This document shows, piece by piece, positions 2-38,036 of a stretch of 50,546 nucleotides of DNA (the stretch's first letter is position 1; every line of letters starts with the position of its first letter). The translations under genes were made by a program, and so were the position numbers. The notes beneath the pieces are model-generated. The model did no database searches and had not been told where the DNA came from. It saw nothing but the letters and a program-made list of their open reading frames with translations. This DNA comes from Candidatus Nomurabacteria bacterium (GTDB taxonomy: Bacteria > Patescibacteriota > Minisyncoccia > Phycocordibacterales > Phycocordibacteraceae), in contig CALRBA010000006.1 in the NCBI GenBank assembly GCA_943353835.1, positions 1 through 50,546 on the forward strand, in the 5' to 3' direction.

Positions 2-355
2 GCGCGCGCGTCCGAATGTGTCTCTGCTACAGCAGGCAATGATGCTTTCTGGAAGTTCTCTAACGCACTCTTCGCGAATCAACCGGTTGATATTTCTCGT
101 TACGGAGAAATTGCATCTTCAGTAGGGATATCCGGCGATGCATTCGCTAATTGTTTTTCTAAAACCTCTTCAACAATTGAAGAACACATCACGGCAGACC
201 GTCAGAACGCACTGGACATAGGCGCGACAGGCACTCCTTATTCAATTATTCTCGTTAACGGCAAGACGCCTGTCGTGATGGACGGTGCTTATTCGTATGA
301 TGCTGTGAAGCAACTCGTGGATCAGGCTCTGTCGTCCAATAATTCCAATTTGTAG
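2..355 (+). CDS. DsbA-like thioredoxin-fold protein, C-terminal part
   Basis: The window opens inside this gene; 117 codons and a TAG stop are visible. The reading contains GATGTPYSIILVNG, the cis-proline loop and following strand typical of DsbA/thioredoxin_4 disulfide oxidoreductases. A helix follows that ends in a Ser/Asn-rich tail. The helical stretch before it (two Cys, at ECVSA and ANCFS) fits the insertion domain of DsbA-like proteins. The active-site CxxC would lie upstream and cannot be seen. The family acts outside the membrane in oxidative folding, often with a VKOR-type partner in Patescibacteria; partner and signal peptide are not visible here. The 3' end overlaps the convergent nuclease gene by 34 bp. 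Confidence 0.75.
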   Translation, partial: ARASECVSATAGNDAFWKFSNALFANQPVDISRYGEIASSVGISGDAFANCFSKTSSTIEEHITADRQNALDIGATGTPYSIILVNGKTPVVMDGAYSYDAVKQLVDQALSSNNSNL

Positions 356-1203
356 ATATCAAACGAGCTGTCGCCTTCAAACATATCGGACGGGTTCGGC
401 AGGTATTTTCGTTGTCTAGAAATTTCTTCGGTCGCGTCGTTGATGAGCCGATGAAAGACTTTAAAATCTTCTCTTCTCTCTTTAAAATCTATTACATACC
501 GTCGCATCTGCGACTTACCATCGGCATTCTTCGTCTTCTTGCACTCATAGACGATAAATCGCCGTACCGGCTTGCCGAATATTTCTCGGACCGTGTAGTA
601 ATTAAAAATCGCTTGGATAATGAAGAGAGACTTAGCCGACCCTCCCTTAGAAAACGATGCGACGAACTTATGGTCAACAATATCAACCGCGCCTTTGTCA
701 ACTTTTGATTCCACAACGAGGTCCGAGATCGCCTTAATGGGGAGAGGGAGCCCTTCTACTTCCACTACGCCCCGCACCTCCACGCCGAGCACCTTGTGTC
801 TCGGCGGTCGCGCAAGATAATATCCGACAGCTCGCAGATATTCTTGTTCCATATGTTTCCGCTTCTTCTTCTTCGCAGTACGCGTCTTCGCTGCACCAAA
901 ATTAATTTCAAAGTCTGCAATATTGCGTACATATTCCAGACCTTTTTGTGTCGCAATTTCTTTTGGGACACCACTGTAAAAATGCTCCAGTGCCTTGTGT
1001 CCAGCGCTACCAATGACGGCAGCTGGTGTGGTCGGTGTATCGTATATTTCCTCCACATAGCGCTTGTACCACGCGAGCGGATTACGTAAAAACGCCATCA
1101 AGCTTGAATGGCTCCAGTGTTTGATGGGAATCCGTCCGCGCTTCGCCGGTTTCTTTTTCACTTTCGACTTACCGATAGTCTTTGCCTTTTTCTTCAGCTT
1201 CAT
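322..1203 (-). CDS. PD-(D/E)XK (RecB/Cas4-type) nuclease domain protein
   Basis: Predicted 293-aa nuclease of the PDDEXK_1 (RecB C-terminal/Cas4-like) family. After a basic N-terminus (residues 1-28) come HWSHSSL at about 29, GSAGHKALEHF with H69, ISDLV with D161, VDHK with D177-x-K179, and the Q-containing helix IIQAIFNYY (Q197). This is the H...D...DxK...Q order of the fold. No helicase or Fe-S cysteine cluster is visible, so it is a stand-alone nuclease rather than AddB or canonical Cas4. I chose ATG 1203 because a perfect TATAAT ends 6 nt upstream; a longer reading would run into the upstream gene. It lies 58 bp downstream of the PaaX-like gene, with a 38-bp palindrome in the gap. A repair or foreign-DNA role is inferred, not shown. 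Confidence 0.72.
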   Translation of the reverse strand: MKLKKKAKTIGKSKVKKKPAKRGRIPIKHWSHSSLMAFLRNPLAWYKRYVEEIYDTPTTPAAVIGSAGHKALEHFYSGVPKEIATQKGLEYVRNIADFEINFGAAKTRTAKKKKRKHMEQEYLRAVGYYLARPPRHKVLGVEVRGVVEVEGLPLPIKAISDLVVESKVDKGAVDIVDHKFVASFSKGGSAKSLFIIQAIFNYYTVREIFGKPVRRFIVYECKKTKNADGKSQMRRYVIDFKERREDFKVFHRLINDATEEISRQRKYLPNPSDMFEGDSSFDIYKLELLDDRA

Positions 1204-1209
1204 AAAGTA

Positions 1210-1256
1210 ATTATAGACTATCCAAGCTTTGTCCCTATAGCGACAAAGCTTGGATA
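1210..1256 (-). promoter_or_regulatory. Nuclease promoter with 38-bp palindromic operator (copy 1)
   Basis: Perfect inverted repeat with arms at 1219-1233 and 1242-1256 around the 8-bp spacer CCTATAGC. On the minus strand a TATAAT (1210-1215) starts 3 bp beyond the palindrome and is followed by 6 nt and the ATG at 1203. With a 17-bp spacer the -35 would fall inside the palindrome (about 1233-1238). Position and perfect symmetry fit a repressor operator. Absence of a following T-run argues against a terminator for the upstream gene. Confidence 0.65.
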
Positions 1257-1261
1257 CCTCT

Positions 1262-1846
1262 CTAATCGGCTGGAAGCGCGAAATGTTCGCGCAGATGTTT
1301 GTCGCGCTCAAGACGTTCCACAATCATATAAAGCACGTCTGCACCGACGCGGAAATTTGCTTTGGCGAGCGCGATAAGATCTTCGCAATCATACGGATAA
1401 ATCCACACGCTGTCTTGAAGCCGCACGAATCCATATTCCTGCATAAAGCGACGAAGACTCGCCCGCATGTTCTTGCGTCGTTCTGGAATATCAAATATGA
1501 CAACGCGCCAGCGCCGGTCCCACTTTCTCTTTTTTGCAATGGCTACTTTTTCCGTCTCCATCTGGAGCTTACGTTGCCCTTTTTCAGTAATCCGCGCGTA
1601 GCGTTTACCATTCTCCTCAACAAACGTGATGCAGCCATTCGCCGCAAGTCGCCCTAATGCTGTTTTCGTCTGATAGTTAAACCGAGCGCCTTTTTTATAT
1701 CCTGGAAAATATTTAAGTAGTTGAACTGCGTTCGGTGCCGTCGCCGCGATGAGCACGACACCACCGACAACCACAGCTGCCAGTAGTGCTTGTTGAAATG
1801 CGCCCAATCGCCGTTCGCGTCTCGCTTCTCGTTCCATTATCCCCAT
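1262..1846 (-). CDS. PaaX/Cas2-like winged-helix regulator with N-terminal membrane segment
   Basis: 194 aa in three parts. A basic N-terminus leads into a strongly hydrophobic stretch (about residues 16-40, ALLAAVVVGGVVLIAAT). Next is a winged-helix-like segment (TKTALGRLAANGCITF, then GKRYARITEKGQRKL). Last is a ferredoxin-like domain beginning WRVVIFDIPERRKNMR, then GFVRLQDSVWIYPYD, the signature shared by PaaX C-terminal domains and Cas2. Such proteins are often labelled Cas2 in Patescibacteria, but there is no CRISPR array or cas1 here. I read it as a transcription regulator, possibly membrane-tethered. ATG 1846 is preferred: an extended -10 (TGATACGAT, 1853-1858) ends 6 nt before it. 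GTG 1852 is the alternative. Palindromes flank the gene on both sides. Confidence 0.7.
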   Translation of the reverse strand: MGIMEREARRERRLGAFQQALLAAVVVGGVVLIAATAPNAVQLLKYFPGYKKGARFNYQTKTALGRLAANGCITFVEENGKRYARITEKGQRKLQMETEKVAIAKKRKWDRRWRVVIFDIPERRKNMRASLRRFMQEYGFVRLQDSVWIYPYDCEDLIALAKANFRVGADVLYMIVERLERDKHLREHFALPAD

Positions 1847-1867
1847 CCGCACATCGTATCACCCTAC

Positions 1868-1905
1868 TATCAAAACTATGTCCCTATAGAGACAAACTGT
1901 GGATA
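1868..1905. promoter_or_regulatory. 38-bp palindromic operator (copy 2), between divergent genes
   Basis: Arms 1868-1882 and 1891-1905 (11 of 15 pairs match) around spacer CCTATAGA, with the same 15-8-15 geometry as the copy at 1219-1256 and the same trailing CCT. It covers the expected -35 position (about 1876-1881) of the PaaX-like gene, whose -10 is at 1853-1858, and ends 2 bp before the TTGACA of the rightward promoter. It is placed to control both genes. Confidence 0.65.
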
Positions 1906-2500: not shown

Positions 2501-3745
2501 CTAATAACTCTTGAGATGCCTAGCCTTGTCATGTGTGCGGATTTTCTCCAGTGCTTTGGCTTCAATTTGGCGAATGCGTTCGCGAGTGACGCCGAACTCG
2601 CGTCCTACCTCTTCAAGCGTGTGATAGATGCCGTCCATAAGGCCGTGGCGCATCTCCAGAATCTTGCGCTCTTTCGGCGAGAGGTCGGCGAGAATCGCGC
2701 GCACCTGCTCCTGAAGAATGCGTTCGGATGATTCCTGCACCGGCGACGGAATTTTGTCGTCCGGTATAAAGTCGCCTAGAGTAGACTTCTCATCGTCATC
2801 CGAGCCGATCGGATTCTCTAGCGAGAGCGTGTCCTGATTAATCTTTTCTATTTGATAAATCTTTTCCGGCTCTACGCCCATCTCAACTGCTATCTCCTCC
2901 GCTTGCGGATCGCGACCGAGCACTTGGGACAAGCGTCGAGAAATTTGTTTATATTTAGCAATAGTCTCTACCATGTGGACAGGGATGCGGATAGTACGCG
3001 ACTGGTCGGCGAGAGCGCGCGTAATCGCCTGACGAATCCACCACGTCGCATATGTGGAGAATTTGTATCCCTTCTTCCAATCAAACTTGTCTACGGCGCG
3101 GAATAGCCCGAGATTCCCTTCTTGAATTAAATCTAGGAGCGTGAGGTCGGGACTTCTACCGACATATTTCTTGGCTATTGAGACAACGAGGCGCAGGTTG
3201 CTCCTCGCGAGGATATTTCGCGCTTCGGCATCACTCTTCTCTATACGCTGAGCGAGTCCGCGCTCTTCGGCGGCGGTCAGGAGCGGGTATTGGCCAATCT
3301 CTCGGAGATAAATCTGAATGGAATCGTAGCCGGTGGAGTGGCGGTTCTTAATATTTCGCGTTGCAAGGTATTCGTCAGCGGCATCTTCCAACATTCCACC
3401 CTCCAGAACGTCAACGCCGGCAATAGAGAATCGTTCGTAGAGTGACTCAAGGAAACTGATGTCCCCCTCAATGTGTGGAAATGATTTCAGGATTTCGCTA
3501 TAGGTGACATATCCGCGCTCCTTACCCTTCTCAATAAGCGCCTCTGCGGATATGGTTTTTTGCGAATTCGCTTTTGTCTTCGCGCTACGAGAGGCAGAAC
3601 GTACTACTTGTTTCTTTGTACCATGCCTACCAGCAGGCAGGCGCTTCGGCTTCGCGGATTTCTTTGTGTGCGCGTGTTTAACAACTCGCTTATTCGCGAT
3701 TCTTTTCGTGCTTTTTTTCTTTTTTTTAATAATTTTTTTTGCCAT
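2501..3745 (-). CDS. rpoD: RNA polymerase primary sigma factor (sigma70, RpoD)
   Basis: 414-aa group 1 sigma factor. A Lys-rich tail (about residues 1-65) precedes a region 1.1-like segment. Then come region 1.2 ([16 protein letters not shown]), region 2 ([36 protein letters not shown]), region 3 and region 4 ([22 protein letters not shown]). It directs RNA polymerase to housekeeping promoters. Start at ATG 3745 gives MAKKI; an ATG 21 nt upstream is possible but less likely. It follows dnaG on the same strand, as in the classical dnaG-rpoD pair, with 69 nt between. A mini-palindrome at 3625-3642 encodes the LPAGR stretch in the basic tail. Confidence 0.95.
3625..3642. repeat. In-frame mini-palindrome in rpoD
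   Basis: GCCTAC (3625-3630) and GCAGGC (3637-3642) flank CAGCAG. It encodes RLPAGRHG within the non-conserved basic tail of sigma. The same coding flavour (RLPTGQAG) occurs in khpA at 13411-13429. Confidence 0.55.
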
Positions 3746-3814
3746 GTAGAAAATAAATGAATTCACTCAGTAGGCGAATCAGCAGATTCGTGGCTCGGCC
3801 ATAAATTTGCTAAA

Positions 3815-20888: not shown

Positions 20889-21482
20889 CTATTTTGGCTT
20901 TAAATCAAGGTGAATGAATGACCGACGGTGGATATCGCAGAGACCGTATTTTTTGAGCGCTTCATAATGCGCCTTCGTACCGTATCCTTTATGCTTTTCA
21001 AAACCGTATTCTGAATACTTTTTAGCAAGATCTAGCATCAATCTGTCCCTAGAAACCTTCGCCGCGATGGAAGCGAGCGAGATGAGAGGTATGAGTTCGT
21101 CGCCGTTGATGATAGTTTCTTGTGAATACTCCGGCGGGGCCTTCAGTGAACCATCTAACAGTACGTGAACCAACGCAGAATCCGTCGCGAGAGCATTCAC
21201 ACCGCGAGAGAGAGCACGTCGCACCGCTGTTGCAATTCCCTCATTATCAATAGTTTCAGCACTTTCAAATTCAACAACGAAGCGCGCATCGCCAAGGGCG
21301 ATGCGCGTATTTAGCATTTCAAAAATCTTTTCCCGTCTCTTCTCCGACAGCTTTTTAGAATCTGCTACGCCAACAAATTCTTTCGCTACATCAAACCCCT
21401 CAGCCACCATCACCACCCCCACTGCTACCGGCCCAGCGAGTGGCCCACGCCCCGCCTCGTCGACCCCAAGTACATACCGCAT
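20889..21482 (-). CDS. rnhB: Ribonuclease HII
   Basis: 197 aa. Motif GVDEAGRGPLAGPV (about residues 5-18) carries the first acidic pair and DSKKLSEKRRE follows at about 42. The third acidic site is at HVLLDGS, the fourth in SLASIAAKVSRD, and YGFEKHKGYGTKAHYEAL completes the family pattern. It removes RNA primers and single ribonucleotides from DNA. ATG 21482 is preceded by TGGTAGTAT ending 6 nt upstream. It is divergent from dnaE; the third palindrome copy lies between them and covers its -35 zone. Confidence 0.95.
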   Translation of the reverse strand: MRYVLGVDEAGRGPLAGPVAVGVVMVAEGFDVAKEFVGVADSKKLSEKRREKIFEMLNTRIALGDARFVVEFESAETIDNEGIATAVRRALSRGVNALATDSALVHVLLDGSLKAPPEYSQETIINGDELIPLISLASIAAKVSRDRLMLDLAKKYSEYGFEKHKGYGTKAHYEALKKYGLCDIHRRSFIHLDLKPK

Positions 21483-21488
21483 AGTGCA

Positions 21489-21607
21489 ATACTACCAAAC
21501 CTACCGACTATCCAAGACTTGGTGCTATAGCGTCAAGTTGTTGATACCTGCTGATGGTTCTGTTCGTTTATGGACATCAACGCATAAGTACCCAGATTTG
21601 GTATTGT
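21489..21607. promoter_or_regulatory. rnhB-dnaE divergent promoters with palindromic operator (copy 3)
   Basis: Palindrome 21509-21546 has arms of 15 bp (10 matching pairs) around GCTATAGC, the same geometry and trailing CCT as the copies at 1219 and 1868. Leftward: extended -10 TGGTAGTAT (hexamer 21489-21494) 6 nt before the rnhB ATG; a 17-bp spacer puts the -35 at 21512-21517, inside the palindrome. Rightward: extended -10 TGGTATTGT (hexamer 21602-21607) 6 nt before the dnaE ATG, too far right to be covered directly. Confidence 0.6.
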
Positions 21608-21613
21608 GTGGGA

Positions 21614-24600
21614 ATGGCAAGTCGCTTTATTCATTTACATACCCACAGTCACTACTCCTTCCTCCAGGCGCTACCGAAGATAGATGAATTGGTTGAAAAA
21701 GCGAAAAAAGAGGGTATGGATGCGCTCGCGCTTACCGACGCGGGTAATATGCACGGCGCGATAGAGTTCTACAAGGCGTGTATGAATGCTGGAATTAAAC
21801 CGATTCTAGGCGTTGATGCATATCTAGCGCCGCGCTCGCGACACGAGAAGGATGCAAGCATTGATGCTAAACGCTCGCGCATCGTGCTCATCGCAGAAAA
21901 TAATGATGGGTACAAGAATCTTCTCACACTCGTGACGAAATCGTGGACCGAAGGATTTTTTGAACGGCCTCGCATTGATAAAGAACTTCTGCGTGAACAT
22001 TCTCGCGGAATTATTGCGATTATCCCTTCTTTCGCCGGCGACGTCGTACAACTACTCCGTGCGGGAGACAAAAACGGCGCCGCGGCCGTGCTCGCGGAGT
22101 TTAAGCAAATATTTGGAAATGAAAATGTGTTCCTTGAAATAACACACCACCAGAAAGTCGCAGGGCACGAAGCACTCCAGCAAAAAATTATAGCGCTTGC
22201 ACGAGAAAGCGATACTCCTCTTGTCGGACAGAACGATGTCTATTATTTGAATACAGATGACCGTGAGGCGACAGAGATTATGCGCCGTATCCAGCAGGGC
22301 GGTCGCGGTAGAAATGAAGACGAGGATTTCTCTTTTATAAACGAGAAACGCGCTCTTGAACTTTTCAAAGATACTCCAGAAGCTGTTGATAACTCACGAA
22401 AAATAGCCGACAGATGCAATTTGTCATTTGAGCTTGGTAAATGGACTTTTCCGGAAGTTCCTATCTCAAAAGGTTTTAAGAATCACGACGAAGAACTGCG
22501 CGCGAAGGCATATGCCGGCATCGCGACAAGAGGACTTGAAGAGTCAAAAGAAGTTACTGACAGAATTGAATACGAATTGAAAATTATTATAGGAAAAGGA
22601 TTTGCCGTATATTATCTCATCGTCGCAGACTTGCTCGCATTCGCACGCCATGAGGGAATTCTCACCACCACGCGCGGGAGCGCGGCCGGGAGCCTCGTTG
22701 CCTATCTCACCGGCATTACGAACGTTGACCCACTTTTCTACAAACTCCCGTTTGAACGATTTCTAAACCCGGAGCGCCCGAAGGCGCCTGATATAGATAT
22801 GGACATCGCTGACGACCGGCGTGACGATATGATAGCGTACACAAAACGGAAATACGGCGAAGACCACGTCGCCCAGATAGGTACCTTCGGCACCATGATG
22901 GCGAGAGCGGCTGTGCGCGACGTCGCGCGCGCGCTCGGACATTCATACAACACTGGCGACCGCATCGCCAAGCTTATCCCAATGGGTTCTCAAGGATTCC
23001 CGATGACGATTGACCGCGCGCTTGAGTTGGAACCGGATTTGAAAACACTCTACGATGAAGATGATGCCACGCGAGAAATTATTGACCTCGCGAAACGCAT
23101 TGAGGGCTGTGTGCGCCACGTGGGTGTGCACGCGGCCGGTGTCGTTGTAGCGCCGACGCCTCTTATTGAATGGGCACCGATCCAGCCAGACCCGAAGGGT
23201 ACCGGAAAACTTATTACGCAGTACGATATGTACTCAATTACGGACGAATATGGAGGAGTAGGGCTTCTTAAGTTTGATTTTCTTGGTATTAAGAATCTCG
23301 CCATTCTCGCCGATGCGGTAAAACGAGTTAAGGAGACGCGGAACATCATCGTTGATATTGAAAACGTTCCGATTGACGATTCTAAAACATACGAGATGCT
23401 CGCACGCGGAGAAACCGAAGGGACATTCCAACTAAACGGTTCAGGTATGACTCGCTGGTTGAAAGAGCTGAGGCCGACATCCATTCACGATATCAATGCA
23501 ATGGTCGCGCTCTACCGCCCTGGACCGATGGAAACAATTCCAAACTATATTGAACGCAAGCACAATCCGAAACTAATTCATTATCTTGACCCGCGTATGA
23601 AAGAATATCTAGATTTCTCATACGGCATTCTCGTATATCAGGACGATGTACTTCTAACCGCGATAAAGCTCGGTGGATATTCGTGGTTGGAGGCGGATGC
23701 ACTGCGTAAAGCGATGGGCAAGAAGATTCCGAAGGTTATGCAGGCGGAGAAGGAAAAATTAACGAAGGGTTTTATGGAATACGGGAAACTCTCAAAACAA
23801 CTCTCCGAAAAATTGTGGGAACTTATAGAACCGTTCGCCGCATACGGATTCAATAAGGCGCACGCCGCGAGTTACGGCAAGGTCGCCTACCAAACCGCGT
23901 ATATGAAGGCGAATTATCCTGTGGAATATCTCGCCGCACTCCTCACCGCAGACTCGGGTGATACAGATAAAATATCTATTTTCGTAGCGGAGGCGAAAAG
24001 AATGGGAGTTAAAGTACTGCCACCGGACGTGAACGAGAGCGGCACGGATTTTACCGTCGTCTCAAACGGCTCAATACGTTTCGGTTTGTCCTCCATCAAG
24101 AACTTCGGCGACGGAATTTCAGAATCAATTATCGCGGAGAGAAAGGAACACGGGCAGTACAAAACGCTATCCGACTTCCTCTCCCGAGTCGGCTCTAAGA
24201 ATCTAAATAGAAAGTCGCTCGAATCGCTCATCAAGTGCGGCGCGCTTGATTCGCTTAATCCATCTCGAGGGACATTGATAGATAATATTGATACACTTCT
24301 CTCTTATCACCGAGAGGCGACTGCTTCTTCACCTCAAGATTCACTGTTTGGCTCTCTAATGGCTCTACCGGAATTGGCGCTACCAGAAGGAAAGCCAGCA
24401 TCGTTCATTGACAAGCTCGTGTGGGAAAAAGAACTTCTCGGCATTTACGTTTCCGGTCACCCGCTTGACGTTCATACAGCAATTACTAAAAAAGCAACTC
24501 TTTCTATCGCGAAGATTAAAGAAGAACGACAATCTGGAATGCTCGTAATCCTGCCAGTACTCGTTACTATCGTGCGTACTCTACTAACCAAGAGTGGCGA

Positions 24601-24781
24601 AAAAATGGCATTCGTCACAGTAGAAGATACGACCGATTCAATAGAGGCGGTCGTCTTCCCAAAATTATTCAAGACGCATGCGAATACTATCGTCACCGGC
24701 GCGTGTATGCTCGCCAAGGGTAAGGTCTCCATAAGAAACGGTGAGGTCACTCTCGCCATAGAAGAACTCAAGCCGCTGTAA
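21614..24781 (+). CDS. dnaE: DNA polymerase III subunit alpha (DnaE)
   Basis: 1055-aa replicative polymerase. The PHP domain starts at once (FIHLHTHSHYSFLQ). The C-family catalytic site shows TTRGSAAGSLVAYLTG and PDIDMDIADDRRD (about residues 395-410), then LYRPGPMETIP and YGILVYQDDV. Finger, beta-binding and OB (LVILPVLVTIVRTLL) regions follow. ATG 21614 gives MASRFIHLH and follows a -10 by 6 nt; earlier in-frame ATGs would add 20 unrelated residues. In the PHP site LTDAGNMHG has Ala where proofreading PHPs have His, and THSHYS has His where Glu or Asp is usual, so the PHP may not be an active exonuclease. Confidence 0.96.
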   Translation: MASRFIHLHTHSHYSFLQALPKIDELVEKAKKEGMDALALTDAGNMHGAIEFYKACMNAGIKPILGVDAYLAPRSRHEKDASIDAKRSRIVLIAENNDGYKNLLTLVTKSWTEGFFERPRIDKELLREHSRGIIAIIPSFAGDVVQLLRAGDKNGAAAVLAEFKQIFGNENVFLEITHHQKVAGHEALQQKIIALARESDTPLVGQNDVYYLNTDDREATEIMRRIQQGGRGRNEDEDFSFINEKRALELFKDTPEAVDNSRKIADRCNLSFELGKWTFPEVPISKGFKNHDEELRAKAYAGIATRGLEESKEVTDRIEYELKIIIGKGFAVYYLIVADLLAFARHEGILTTTRGSAAGSLVAYLTGITNVDPLFYKLPFERFLNPERPKAPDIDMDIADDRRDDMIAYTKRKYGEDHVAQIGTFGTMMARAAVRDVARALGHSYNTGDRIAKLIPMGSQGFPMTIDRALELEPDLKTLYDEDDATREIIDLAKRIEGCVRHVGVHAAGVVVAPTPLIEWAPIQPDPKGTGKLITQYDMYSITDEYGGVGLLKFDFLGIKNLAILADAVKRVKETRNIIVDIENVPIDDSKTYEMLARGETEGTFQLNGSGMTRWLKELRPTSIHDINAMVALYRPGPMETIPNYIERKHNPKLIHYLDPRMKEYLDFSYGILVYQDDVLLTAIKLGGYSWLEADALRKAMGKKIPKVMQAEKEKLTKGFMEYGKLSKQLSEKLWELIEPFAAYGFNKAHAASYGKVAYQTAYMKANYPVEYLAALLTADSGDTDKISIFVAEAKRMGVKVLPPDVNESGTDFTVVSNGSIRFGLSSIKNFGDGISESIIAERKEHGQYKTLSDFLSRVGSKNLNRKSLESLIKCGALDSLNPSRGTLIDNIDTLLSYHREATASSPQDSLFGSLMALPELALPEGKPASFIDKLVWEKELLGIYVSGHPLDVHTAITKKATLSIAKIKEERQSGMLVILPVLVTIVRTLLTKSGEKMAFVTVEDTTDSIEAVVFPKLFKTHANTIVTGACMLAKGKVSIRNGEVTLAIEELKPL

Positions 24782-27249: not shown

Positions 27250-28613
27250 GCGCCGAGGATAGCGAGCGCGCGAGTGAGCGCGAGCTTCGCGCCGGTGACG
27301 CCTTCTGTATAGCTAGAGTCGATGGCGGTGGTGAGCGAAGCGACAAGCCTCTCTAGAGTCGGTGTATTCAAGCGCGCTGTCATACGCGCGATGTCGGAGT
27401 CGCAGTCCGTCCCGTCAATGCGAGCACGATACACATCGTCAATAAGACATACTATCTCTGATATGAGTTTCTCTGGCGAGCCGTTCCCGCGTACGTGTTG
27501 ACGCAAGCCTGCGAAGACCGCCATACGGTCTCCTTCAACAAGAGCTGAAATGAATTCACGGATATGCATAGGCGCCGAGACGGGAACTTTCTCAACAATA
27601 TCTTCGTTTATAATCGGTTCAACATTATTGTAAATCGGTTCAACTTTTTCATATATGGGCTCAACATTCCCCTCCTTCGCCGAGGCTACGACGGGCACGC
27701 GTGCAAGACCCTTAACGATATCATCTATTGATAATGCACCATTATGCGCAAAGGATTTGAAACCATCGTACGAAGAATATCCGCGAGGAACTTCTTTATT
27801 TTCTTGAACAGTTATTGACGAGAGCGGTGCAGTCTCAGACATAGTAGCTTGTGCAATTCCATTGTTGGCATATGAAAGTTCTCTCACTGTAAGTGAGTCA
27901 CGTACACGGGAACCGAGACTGCGAATAGAACGGTTCACGAGAGGTGCTACACCGAACAGTACGAGATAGGCAAGAGCGAGCGCCCACACAATGAGAGCCA
28001 GCCAATAAAATACTGTCCCGATTGTTCCGAGCTCAAGGCCTGTATATGGAATTTGTGACAGATACAGATATGCGAGAGGTTGTGTCGCAACGTGCGGCAA
28101 CATCGCGAGAGTTATATTTGGCTGTGGCGAACCTCCGCCACCACCTCCACCTCCGCCACCTCCGGATGAAGGGGTTACTGGTGGCACGACTGGCGGAACC
28201 ACTGGTGGAACAACAGGCGGTACAACTGGCGGAACCACTGGTGGAACAACAGGCGGTACAACAGGCGGAACCACTGGTGGAACAACAGGCGGTACAACAG
28301 GCGGAACCACTGGTGGAACAACAGGCGGTACAACTGGCGGAACCACTGGTGGCACGACTGGTGGAGGAATAACTGGAGGTTGAGGTACTACAGGCGGGAC
28401 CACAGGTGGTGGAGGAACTACCAGGGGCACTGGAGGCGGAGGTGGTGGAGTTATGCAACATCCTGGTCCGATAACTTGAGCAAAAACCTGTGAAGGAGTT
28501 ACGAAACCAAATGCAAACGCAATTGACATACCGACAGCAACAACAAAAAGTACGGCAAAGAGACCGATAAATATCGGTTTATTATTTATGTATGCTGGAA
28601 CTGTTTTTGTCAT
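27246..28613 (-). CDS. Two-span membrane protein with VPP repeat stalk
   Basis: 455 aa. TM1 is at about residues 15-37 (FIGLFAVLFVVAVGMSIAFA). A Pro/Val-rich stalk (PPVV tandem repeats, about 50-145) and a poly-Gly stretch follow. TM2 (FYWLALIVWALALAYLVLFG) is at about 195-215, then a ~240-residue C-terminal part. With both ends inside, the stalk would face outward. The C-terminal part holds a degenerate 7-residue repeat (VEPIYEK, VEPIYNN, VEPII) and a helical domain ending TGAKLALTRALAILGA. Its function is unknown. Start ATG 28613 puts TM1 near the N-terminus; an upstream in-frame start would cross the hairpin at 28664-28694. Last gene of the surface locus with the sortase. Confidence 0.7.
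   Translation of the reverse strand: MTKTVPAYINNKPIFIGLFAVLFVVAVGMSIAFAFGFVTPSQVFAQVIGPGCCITPPPPPPVPLVVPPPPVVPPVVPQPPVIPPPVVPPVVPPVVPPVVPPVVPPVVPPVVPPVVPPVVPPVVPPVVPPVVPPVVPPVVPPVVPPVTPSSGGGGGGGGGGGSPQPNITLAMLPHVATQPLAYLYLSQIPYTGLELGTIGTVFYWLALIVWALALAYLVLFGVAPLVNRSIRSLGSRVRDSLTVRELSYANNGIAQATMSETAPLSSITVQENKEVPRGYSSYDGFKSFAHNGALSIDDIVKGLARVPVVASAKEGNVEPIYEKVEPIYNNVEPIINEDIVEKVPVSAPMHIREFISALVEGDRMAVFAGLRQHVRGNGSPEKLISEIVCLIDDVYRARIDGTDCDSDIARMTARLNTPTLERLVASLTTAIDSSYTEGVTGAKLALTRALAILGA
28192..28359. repeat. 36-bp tandem repeat coding the VPP stalk
   Basis: Units start at 28192, 28228, 28264, 28300 and 28336 (about 4.6 copies). Each 36-bp unit is itself three near-identical 12-bp units encoding PPVV. 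Units are almost identical at DNA level, with T/A alternation at the unit end. This points to recent slippage expansion and likely stalk-length variation between strains. Confidence 0.85.
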
Positions 28614-36779: not shown

Positions 36780-37232
36780 TTAGCGGGAAGAGAGACGCAC
36801 GAACTGCGTAACTTCAACGCGTTCGCCGAACTTCTGTGTCGCTTCATTCAGAAGATTATTCATCGTCTTGTCGGTATCCTTTATGAACGCTTGTTCTAAT
36901 AATTCTTCAGTATTCTCCGGATCCATAGCGGCAACCTGCATCGCGAGCTCGCGCGCGAATGCCGTAAATTCAGGATTCTTAGCGACAAAGTCGGTCTCGC
37001 AGGAGAGGAGTACCATAGCGCCAATATTCCCATCGTGCGTATAGCTCCCTATCGCGCCGGCCTTGAGATCTCTCCCGACCTTTTTAAGCGCGGACGCGCC
37101 TGAATGTTTTTTAAGAATAATCTTCGCCTTAGCGAGATCTCCACCTGCCTCTTCAAGCGCTTTCTTACACAGCATGACGGACACACCGGTCATCTCGCGT
37201 AACTCTTTAATGCTTTCAGTCGTAATTTCCAT
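36780..37232 (-). CDS. tsf: Translation elongation factor Ts, short form
   Basis: 150 aa against about 280-295 in most bacteria and 196 in Thermus. The UBA-like N-domain (SIKELREMTGVSVMLCKKAL, then GDLAKAKIILKK) and the single core repeat with LLSCETDFVAKNPEF (the TDFVAK loop that disrupts EF-Tu Mg binding) are present. The second core subdomain and coiled-coil are missing. It exchanges GDP on EF-Tu. Its own extended -10 (TGTTACTAT) lies 12 nt before the ATG, downstream of the large hairpin at 37261-37332. Confidence 0.93.
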   Translation of the reverse strand: MEITTESIKELREMTGVSVMLCKKALEEAGGDLAKAKIILKKHSGASALKKVGRDLKAGAIGSYTHDGNIGAMVLLSCETDFVAKNPEFTAFARELAMQVAAMDPENTEELLEQAFIKDTDKTMNNLLNEATQKFGERVEVTQFVRLSSR

Positions 37233-37260: not shown

Positions 37261-37332
37261 GGTCACTGTGATTTGTTTTTCTGTGAGTGGCTGCAGTGCC
37301 CCGAGCGAACAGAAAAACGAATCACAGTGACC
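37261..37332 (-). other. 24-bp inverted repeat between rpsB and tsf
   Basis: Arms 37261-37284 and 37309-37332 pair over 24 bp with a single G-U-compatible mismatch and a 24-nt loop. It begins 5 bp after the rpsB stop and ends 28 bp before the tsf ATG. There is no U-run after it, so it is not a standard terminator. It could be an RNase III site, a stability hairpin, or a miniature mobile element. Confidence 0.75.
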
Positions 37333-37337
37333 GTAGC

Positions 37338-38036
37338 TTACGCGGCCTGCCCCTTCAAGAATGCCTCTGTAAGCTCGGAGAGAATCAGTTCAACCGTCTT
37401 GCGCGACGTGTCGTTCGCCACTATCGGATACGTTGCATCCTTAATGTTGCAGTCAGAACTCATTACGGCAATTATCGGAATACCGGCATCGTTTGCCTCC
37501 TTCACCGCGTGCTTCTCATGCTTCGTGTCCACTATGAGAAGCGCGTCCGGCTTCTTCGTGAGCATGGTGATGCCGTCTAGACGCTCCGTGAGACGCTTTT
37601 TCTCGCGACCAATCATCACGAGTTCTAGCTTGGTGTGCTGTTTCGCAAGAGTTATCTCCGCGTCTGGAGCACTCAACTCGGCGAGCCGGTCAATGCGTTT
37701 CTTAATCTCGGTCCAGTTAGAGATTGTTCCGCCGAGCCAGCGTGCCGCTACATAAGGAGCGCCGATTTCCTGTGATGCATATTTGACAAGTGCAGAAATT
37801 TCCACCTTCCCTCCGACGAAGAGAATCGTCTTCCCTTCTTTAGCCAAGGTTGACATAACTGACTTGGCAGTTTCCAACTGTTCTGTTGTTTTTACCAAAT
37901 CAATAATCTCCTGTCGTCCTTTTGTACCAACCAAGAACGGTTTCATAGATGGATGCCGACGACTCTTTACCTGCGCGAAATGCGCCCCTGTATCAAAGAG
38001 GCGCTTCAGCTCTGCCGTATCTTTCATTTCGGTCAT
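37338..38036 (-). CDS. rpsB: 30S ribosomal protein uS2
   Basis: 232 aa. Core signatures: [19 protein letters not shown] at the N-terminus (residues 10-28), then [20 protein letters not shown], then [17 protein letters not shown], and the C-terminal [19 protein letters not shown] and [14 protein letters not shown]. Assembles late on the small subunit and is needed for bS1/initiation. The start overlaps the prfA stop by 4 bp (ATGA), so the two are translationally coupled. Confidence 0.96.

Follow-up and report, generated by a model that had tools for sequence, protein, structure and literature searches.

The PaaX-like gene and its closest described relatives

PaaX, the repressor of the phenylacetate pathway in E. 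coli (PDB 8a39; TIGR02277; PF20803), consists of a winged helix followed by a Cas2-like domain, and the same arrangement is apparent in a protein encoded near one end of the window (the whole stretch of 50,546 nucleotides analysed here). However, the window protein has about 196 residues whereas PaaX has more than 300, and its gene lies outside a phenylacetate operon and occurs in multiple copies, each with its own flanking palindromes. A second relative is Cas2, the nuclease fold of CRISPR adaptation, which resembles the window protein in its Cas2-like domain with an invariant Asp; in the window protein this domain is fused to a winged helix, and no other cas gene was found among the neighbouring genes tested. 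Solo LTRs and other recombination scars arise where a gene is lost from between its flanking repeats and a single repeat stays behind, and their geometry matches what is seen at two loci when the window's own genome (G000; 533,899 bases, ~534 kb, 98.5% complete) is compared with a relative (G008), although here the remnant would be a 38-bp site alone, with no known transposase or integrase, and the process is one that we infer. Finally, the REPtrons of the REP/RAYT (TnpA_REP) type (PMC2817692, PMC8266576) also combine a single gene with flanking palindromes that are found alone outside genes; the window system differs from them in its protein family, in having few sites per genome, and in arms that look like a dimer binding site and not like a hairpin.

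A literature search, with subscription papers and preprints outside its scope, returned no publication that connects PaaX to Patescibacteria, CPR or Cas2 palindromes, and the one paper on PaaX and mobile elements that it returned concerns the evolution of E. coli. We found no published description of the PaaX-like cassette and class it as a variant of PaaX-type regulators. Our preferred reading, to which we give a probability of roughly 0.6, is that the palindromes are binding sites of the PaaX-like protein as well as the ends of a single-gene mobile cassette of ~0.7 kb, and that a third copy in the window is a solitary site.

The PaaX-like gene (1262..1852, minus strand; ATG start probably at 1846) was identified by gene call, by PaaX_M (4.5e-19) and by fold match, and is the sole gene of the cassette. 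Repeat finder and weight matrix place one palindrome, with no strand assigned to either, at each end of it: one at its 3′ end (1219..1256), adjoining a PD-(D/E)XK nuclease gene (322..1203, minus strand; PDDEXK_1, 2.1e-17), and one at its 5′ end (1868..1905), beyond which the domain search places rpoD, encoding sigma-70 (2501..3766, minus strand). The nuclease gene is conserved beside rpoD whether the cassette is present or absent. The protein scores 68.8 bits with the Pfam model PaaX_M (PF20803), above the gathering cut-off of 24, and 46.4 bits with the PaaX equivalog TIGR02277, far below the NCBIfam cut-off of 264.55. With an AlphaFold model of mean pLDDT 75, poor in its N-terminal part, the best Foldseek match is E. 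coli PaaX (8a39, E 7.3e-6, TM 0.53), Cas2 proteins are among the next matches, and the winged-helix proteins that its winged-helix part resembles include the centromere protein AspA. Of the Cas2 models themselves, TIGR01573 scores above its cut-off (28.5 against 24.5 bits) and Pfam Cas2 below it (21.6 against 23.8). Ten residues are invariant across 26 PaaX-like homologues, among them D121, which in the alignment appears to coincide with the Cas2 Asp.

The only open reading frame between the sites in G000 is the PaaX-like one, with no recognisable transposase or recombinase, and a Pfam search found no Y1/HUH transposase domain in its product. We also considered and rejected a defence system, since PADLOC returned only Cas2-like matches, and a viral origin, for which the viral contigs held just one weak relative. 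Two further PaaX-like genes are present in G000: one on C2 (L305), adjoining an rplI-like gene and carrying CCTATAGG palindromes at both ends, and one on C9 (L306), flanked by secA-like and murB-like genes and preceded by a weak CGGCCG palindrome.

A third palindrome between rnhB and dnaE

The repeat finder recovered a 43-nt family of three copies in the window (1217-1259, 1866-1908 and 21507-21549), with identities within the family of 84% for the second and 74% for the third, and genome-wide pattern searches found these three and no others in G000, with zero matches to a reversed control pattern. Each contains a 38-bp palindrome with the core CTATAG. With a weight matrix built from the site family, the three window copies included, they reach 51.8, 51.2 and 44.6 against -14 for the runner-up in the window, a gap of more than 55 bits; this gap and the empty control rule out a chance repeat. 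Within the third copy the palindrome (21509-21546, no strand; score 51.8), located by repeat finder and pattern searches, reads TATCCAAGACTTGGTGCTATAGCGTCAAGTTGTTGATA, with half-sites TATCCAAGACTTGGTG and TATCAACAACTTGACG around the core. These searches bear out the earlier note, which had reported a third copy with the same core and trailing CCT in this gap. Its statement that no copy lies inside a gene holds for the own genome, where all three are intergenic, and fails in relatives, where 3 of the 51 sites examined fall within folD (twice) or uvrC. These intragenic palindromes lie at L217 and L222 (folD) and L242 (uvrC), and the two folD positions are similar in the two genomes while the arm families differ.

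The third copy is flanked by rnhB (20889..21482, minus strand, start at 21482; domain search) and dnaE (21614..24781, plus strand; domain search). Alignment with relatives sets the dnaE start, with its PHP domain, at 21614 and not at the first in-frame ATG at 21554. The proposed coverage of the rnhB -35 was likewise borne out, as a candidate -35, TTGGAT (21515-21510), lies inside the palindrome. Were the third copy to work as a real operator, the PaaX-like protein would repress its own gene and a small regulon, acting from 21509-21546 on rnhB, and perhaps dnaE, together with the nuclease. Beyond the -35 overlap, this is consistent with a protein that is PaaX-like in sequence and, by its best match, in fold. 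However, the candidate extended -10 of dnaE, TATTGT (21602-21607), reads 55 bp downstream of the palindrome, so that the dnaE promoter is not overlapped, and a site of this type is missing from 28 of 30 dnaE loci. The half-sites also argue against an operator in current use, as the third copy has drifted apart from the sites that flank its own gene: by eye, each half-site has 5 mismatches to those and only 2 to the sites of G008. Because the half-sites are nearer to those of G008, the third copy seems to have been left behind while the local site family drifted, as expected of a relic not following its protein. We regard the operator as possible but on balance unlikely, and prefer, again at a probability of roughly 0.6, a solitary relic or a landing site. 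The two are not exclusive: the third copy might still be bound in trans, with some possible effect on rnhB. A regulon of dnaE, rnhB and the nuclease is likewise possible, its basis being the positional overlap with the candidate rnhB -35.

Many relatives (for example at L045, L047, L054 and L057) have just 20-24 bp between the divergent rnhB and dnaE, with a AGTATACT-like stretch that looks like a single symmetric -10 shared by two genes almost without leaders.

Loci with and without the gene in related genomes

In G008 the gap between rnhB and dnaE is occupied by the PaaX-like gene itself. This orthologue is 79-80% identical to the window gene and carries a palindrome at each end, in the order dnaE, site (1717-1754), PaaX-like gene (1774-2355), site (2387-2424), rnhB, with the outer site edges 25 bp from rnhB and 76 bp from dnaE, close to the 26 and 67 bp of the own genome. 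The rpoD locus, occupied by the gene in the own genome, holds a single palindrome in G008 (C6:6754-6791), so that the two genomes are mirror images of each other at these loci; the other neighbour of the solitary rpoD site is a UvrD-like helicase gene and not the nuclease. The outer half-sites agree within each of the two pairs: one flank has a CCACAA-like half-site (X) and the opposite flank a CCAAGA-like one (Y), in a reading of the sequences that covers two loci only. The claim of the earlier note that the third copy is the same operator as at the PaaX-like gene thus stands as far as a shared family of predicted binding sites is concerned, but with the gene of G008 occupying this very gap an operator is no longer the main reading.

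Further occupants of the gap are the PaaX-like gene of G069, pieced together from two contig ends, and a distant paralogue (L101, 47% identical). The copies of G008 and G069 fall at separate places in the gene tree, both inside a clade whose members mostly lie beside rpoD and the nuclease, and because of this nesting the rpoD locus is likely the older one and the solitary rpoD site of G008 likely a scar. G002 lacks any PaaX homologue, and at its rpoD locus a decayed half-site stands alone (15.8 against a null maximum of 10.1 with the weight matrix), an observation that would also suit an operator. At the MBL locus, none of the 28 relatives lacking the gene has a palindrome and both of the two relatives carrying it do; the clean empty form is seen in G005, where the MBL and DUF1653-like genes are 14 bp apart. 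Occupied and empty orthologous loci are both found for rnhB-dnaE, rpoD and MBL, as looked for in insertion sequences and transposons, all by comparison between species, and in these between-species comparisons we saw no excision product, circle or filled and empty pair from the same species.

These loci also bear on the expected link between motif and gene. Among 30 dnaE loci (own genome and relatives) the site occurs only in the own genome and in G008, in line with a tie to the gene, and its loss along with the gene is matched by the decayed half-site of G002. The MBL loci, where palindromes are missing together with the gene, count instead against an operator as the main reading. The link is partly broken by two genomes in which the motif stands independently: G029 has one CTATAG-type site, upstream of comEC, and PaaX-like genes that are only about 54% identical and lack matching palindromes, and G067 has six such sites (L234-L239), four of them perfect palindromes, while the sole PaaX-like gene found there has the core CGACCG and a cognate gene was not found. 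The MAG G062 contains two rpoD-nuclease loci, C6 (L075) and C12 (L208), of which one is occupied by the cassette and the other has just a single site, so that the bin may mix two organisms.

Site families across Paceibacteria and their possible function

We surveyed ~100 loci from Paceibacteria for PaaX-like genes and bounding palindromes. The gene is present in 20 of 59 relatives, in up to 11 copies per genome; it recurs at gyrA, MBL hydrolase, rpoD-nuclease, gyrB and rnhB-dnaE and occurs at many single loci, and within one clade of the gene tree different loci are occupied, with copies apparently moving between loci. For 80 homologous loci from Kaiser-, Nomura-, Zambryski-, Taylor- and related bacteria, 160-bp windows on each side of the gene reach a palindrome score of at least 9 upstream in 54, downstream in 54 and on both sides in 41, compared with 4% of control windows; at a score of at least 14 the counts are 23 before and 26 after the gene, compared with 0.5%. 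Arms and core are usually common to the two sites of one gene and different between genes (CTATAG, CGGTCG/CGACCG, CGGCCG, CGATCG and a few others), with a separate site family for every paralogue. Often the upstream palindrome terminates at the start codon of the PaaX-like gene or close to it, as an autoregulatory operator would. The downstream palindrome is part of the cassette, because it is present beside co-directional (33 of 44) and convergent (18 of 30) neighbours alike. That it also adjoins convergent genes led us to reject a simple operator of the downstream gene.

Within the arms, the positions beside the core co-vary and the outer ones do not (78 of 125 symmetric, compared with 81 by shuffling, P 0.76). 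As the core-adjacent positions vary together in both arms, the protein probably recognises its site as a dimer, which would serve an operator equally well. If the palindromes acted instead as hairpins in single-stranded DNA or RNA, whether as a REPtron analogue, a terminator or an attenuator, the outer arms should co-vary too; their failure to do so leads us to reject a hairpin or REP-like function. The resemblance to REPs around tnpA_REP genes, in palindromes that flank one gene and also occur solo, is further offset by a protein without a Y1/HUH domain and by sites that are few per genome and not in the hundreds, so that this explanation is scarcely credible.

Solitary sites were followed in related genomes, where a TATC-type pattern matches 1 to 20 sites per genome. 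In a rough tally of 36 sites with both neighbours called by a simple custom gene finder, a few cassette edges included, 20 lie between co-directional, 9 between convergent and 7 between divergent genes. Solitary sites are thus not enriched at promoters, being as frequent between convergent genes as elsewhere, which counts against operators; and although dprA, pilB, comEC and folD recur as neighbours, orientations without promoter bias make no regulon legible from them. The same loci carry different cores from genome to genome (three genomes each upstream of dprA and downstream of pilB), and these recurrent sites look like selected binding sites whose specificity drifted with the protein, which tells against the cassette. 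Together with sites near comEC, lexA, smc and recG (gene names assigned by eye), the recurrence near dprA favours the operator. Sites that are few in number, in any orientation to genes and seldom inside them could also be architectural, that is, parS- or matS-like chromosome-organising sites for a duplicated family of DNA-binding proteins with no connection to transcription or mobility, and the resemblance to AspA noted above would fit; however, the site families differ from paralogue to paralogue and the sites lie at the borders of the gene itself, which makes an architectural role very improbable.

Within 500 bp of contig ends we counted 10 solitary sites against 3.7 expected, largely from the possibly mixed MAG G062, an excess such as structural variation between strains would give. 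Site pairs of different families, 1-12 bp apart, occur at L226 (G069:C13), L227, L205 and L216, and one of these pairs lies upstream of a lexA-like gene.

In the mobile cassette that we prefer, the dyad-symmetric palindrome would be bound by the adjacent winged-helix and Cas2-like protein, presumably autoregulated, whose two predicted sites bound its own gene. The unit of site, PaaX-like gene and site (~0.7 kb) would move between intergenic loci of Paceibacteria, and loss of the gene, presumably by recombination between the two flanking sites, would leave one solitary site; alternatively, the third copy would be an empty landing site used by the cassette. Further features of the sequences speak against the cassette. 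It has no known transposase or recombinase domain. No single recombination geometry explains its sites, since paired sites are inverted, direct or each self-symmetric by turns, and the half-site pairing, which differs between cassettes, does not support a fixed attL/attR-type geometry for all of them. Lastly, the perfect core of the G008 solitary site and the perfect palindromes of G067 look unlike neutral scars. A minimal mobile element whose winged-helix/Cas2-fold protein cleaves or recombines its own predicted palindromic sites to move, its specificity diversifying by paralogue across Paceibacteria, is a further but distinctly doubtful reading.

If the cassette is real, a Cas2-fold DNA-binding protein that carries its binding sites along would connect regulators and Cas2 with mobile elements, and small mobile cassettes would become a described class in Paceibacteria. 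The 'operators' scattered over these genomes would then be explained as vacated sites, open to later recruitment for regulation, and for the window a shared regulator of DNA polymerase III, RNase HII and the nuclease would no longer be needed as an assumption.

Two further repeats are present in the window. A near-perfect inverted repeat (37261-37332; 24-nt arms, 96% complementary, 24-nt loop) lies in the gap between two minus-strand genes (36780-37232 and 37338-38036) and is a possible attenuator or leader element, and a long array with a 12-bp period, ACTGGTGGAACA-like, spans 28141-28424 within a minus-strand coding region.
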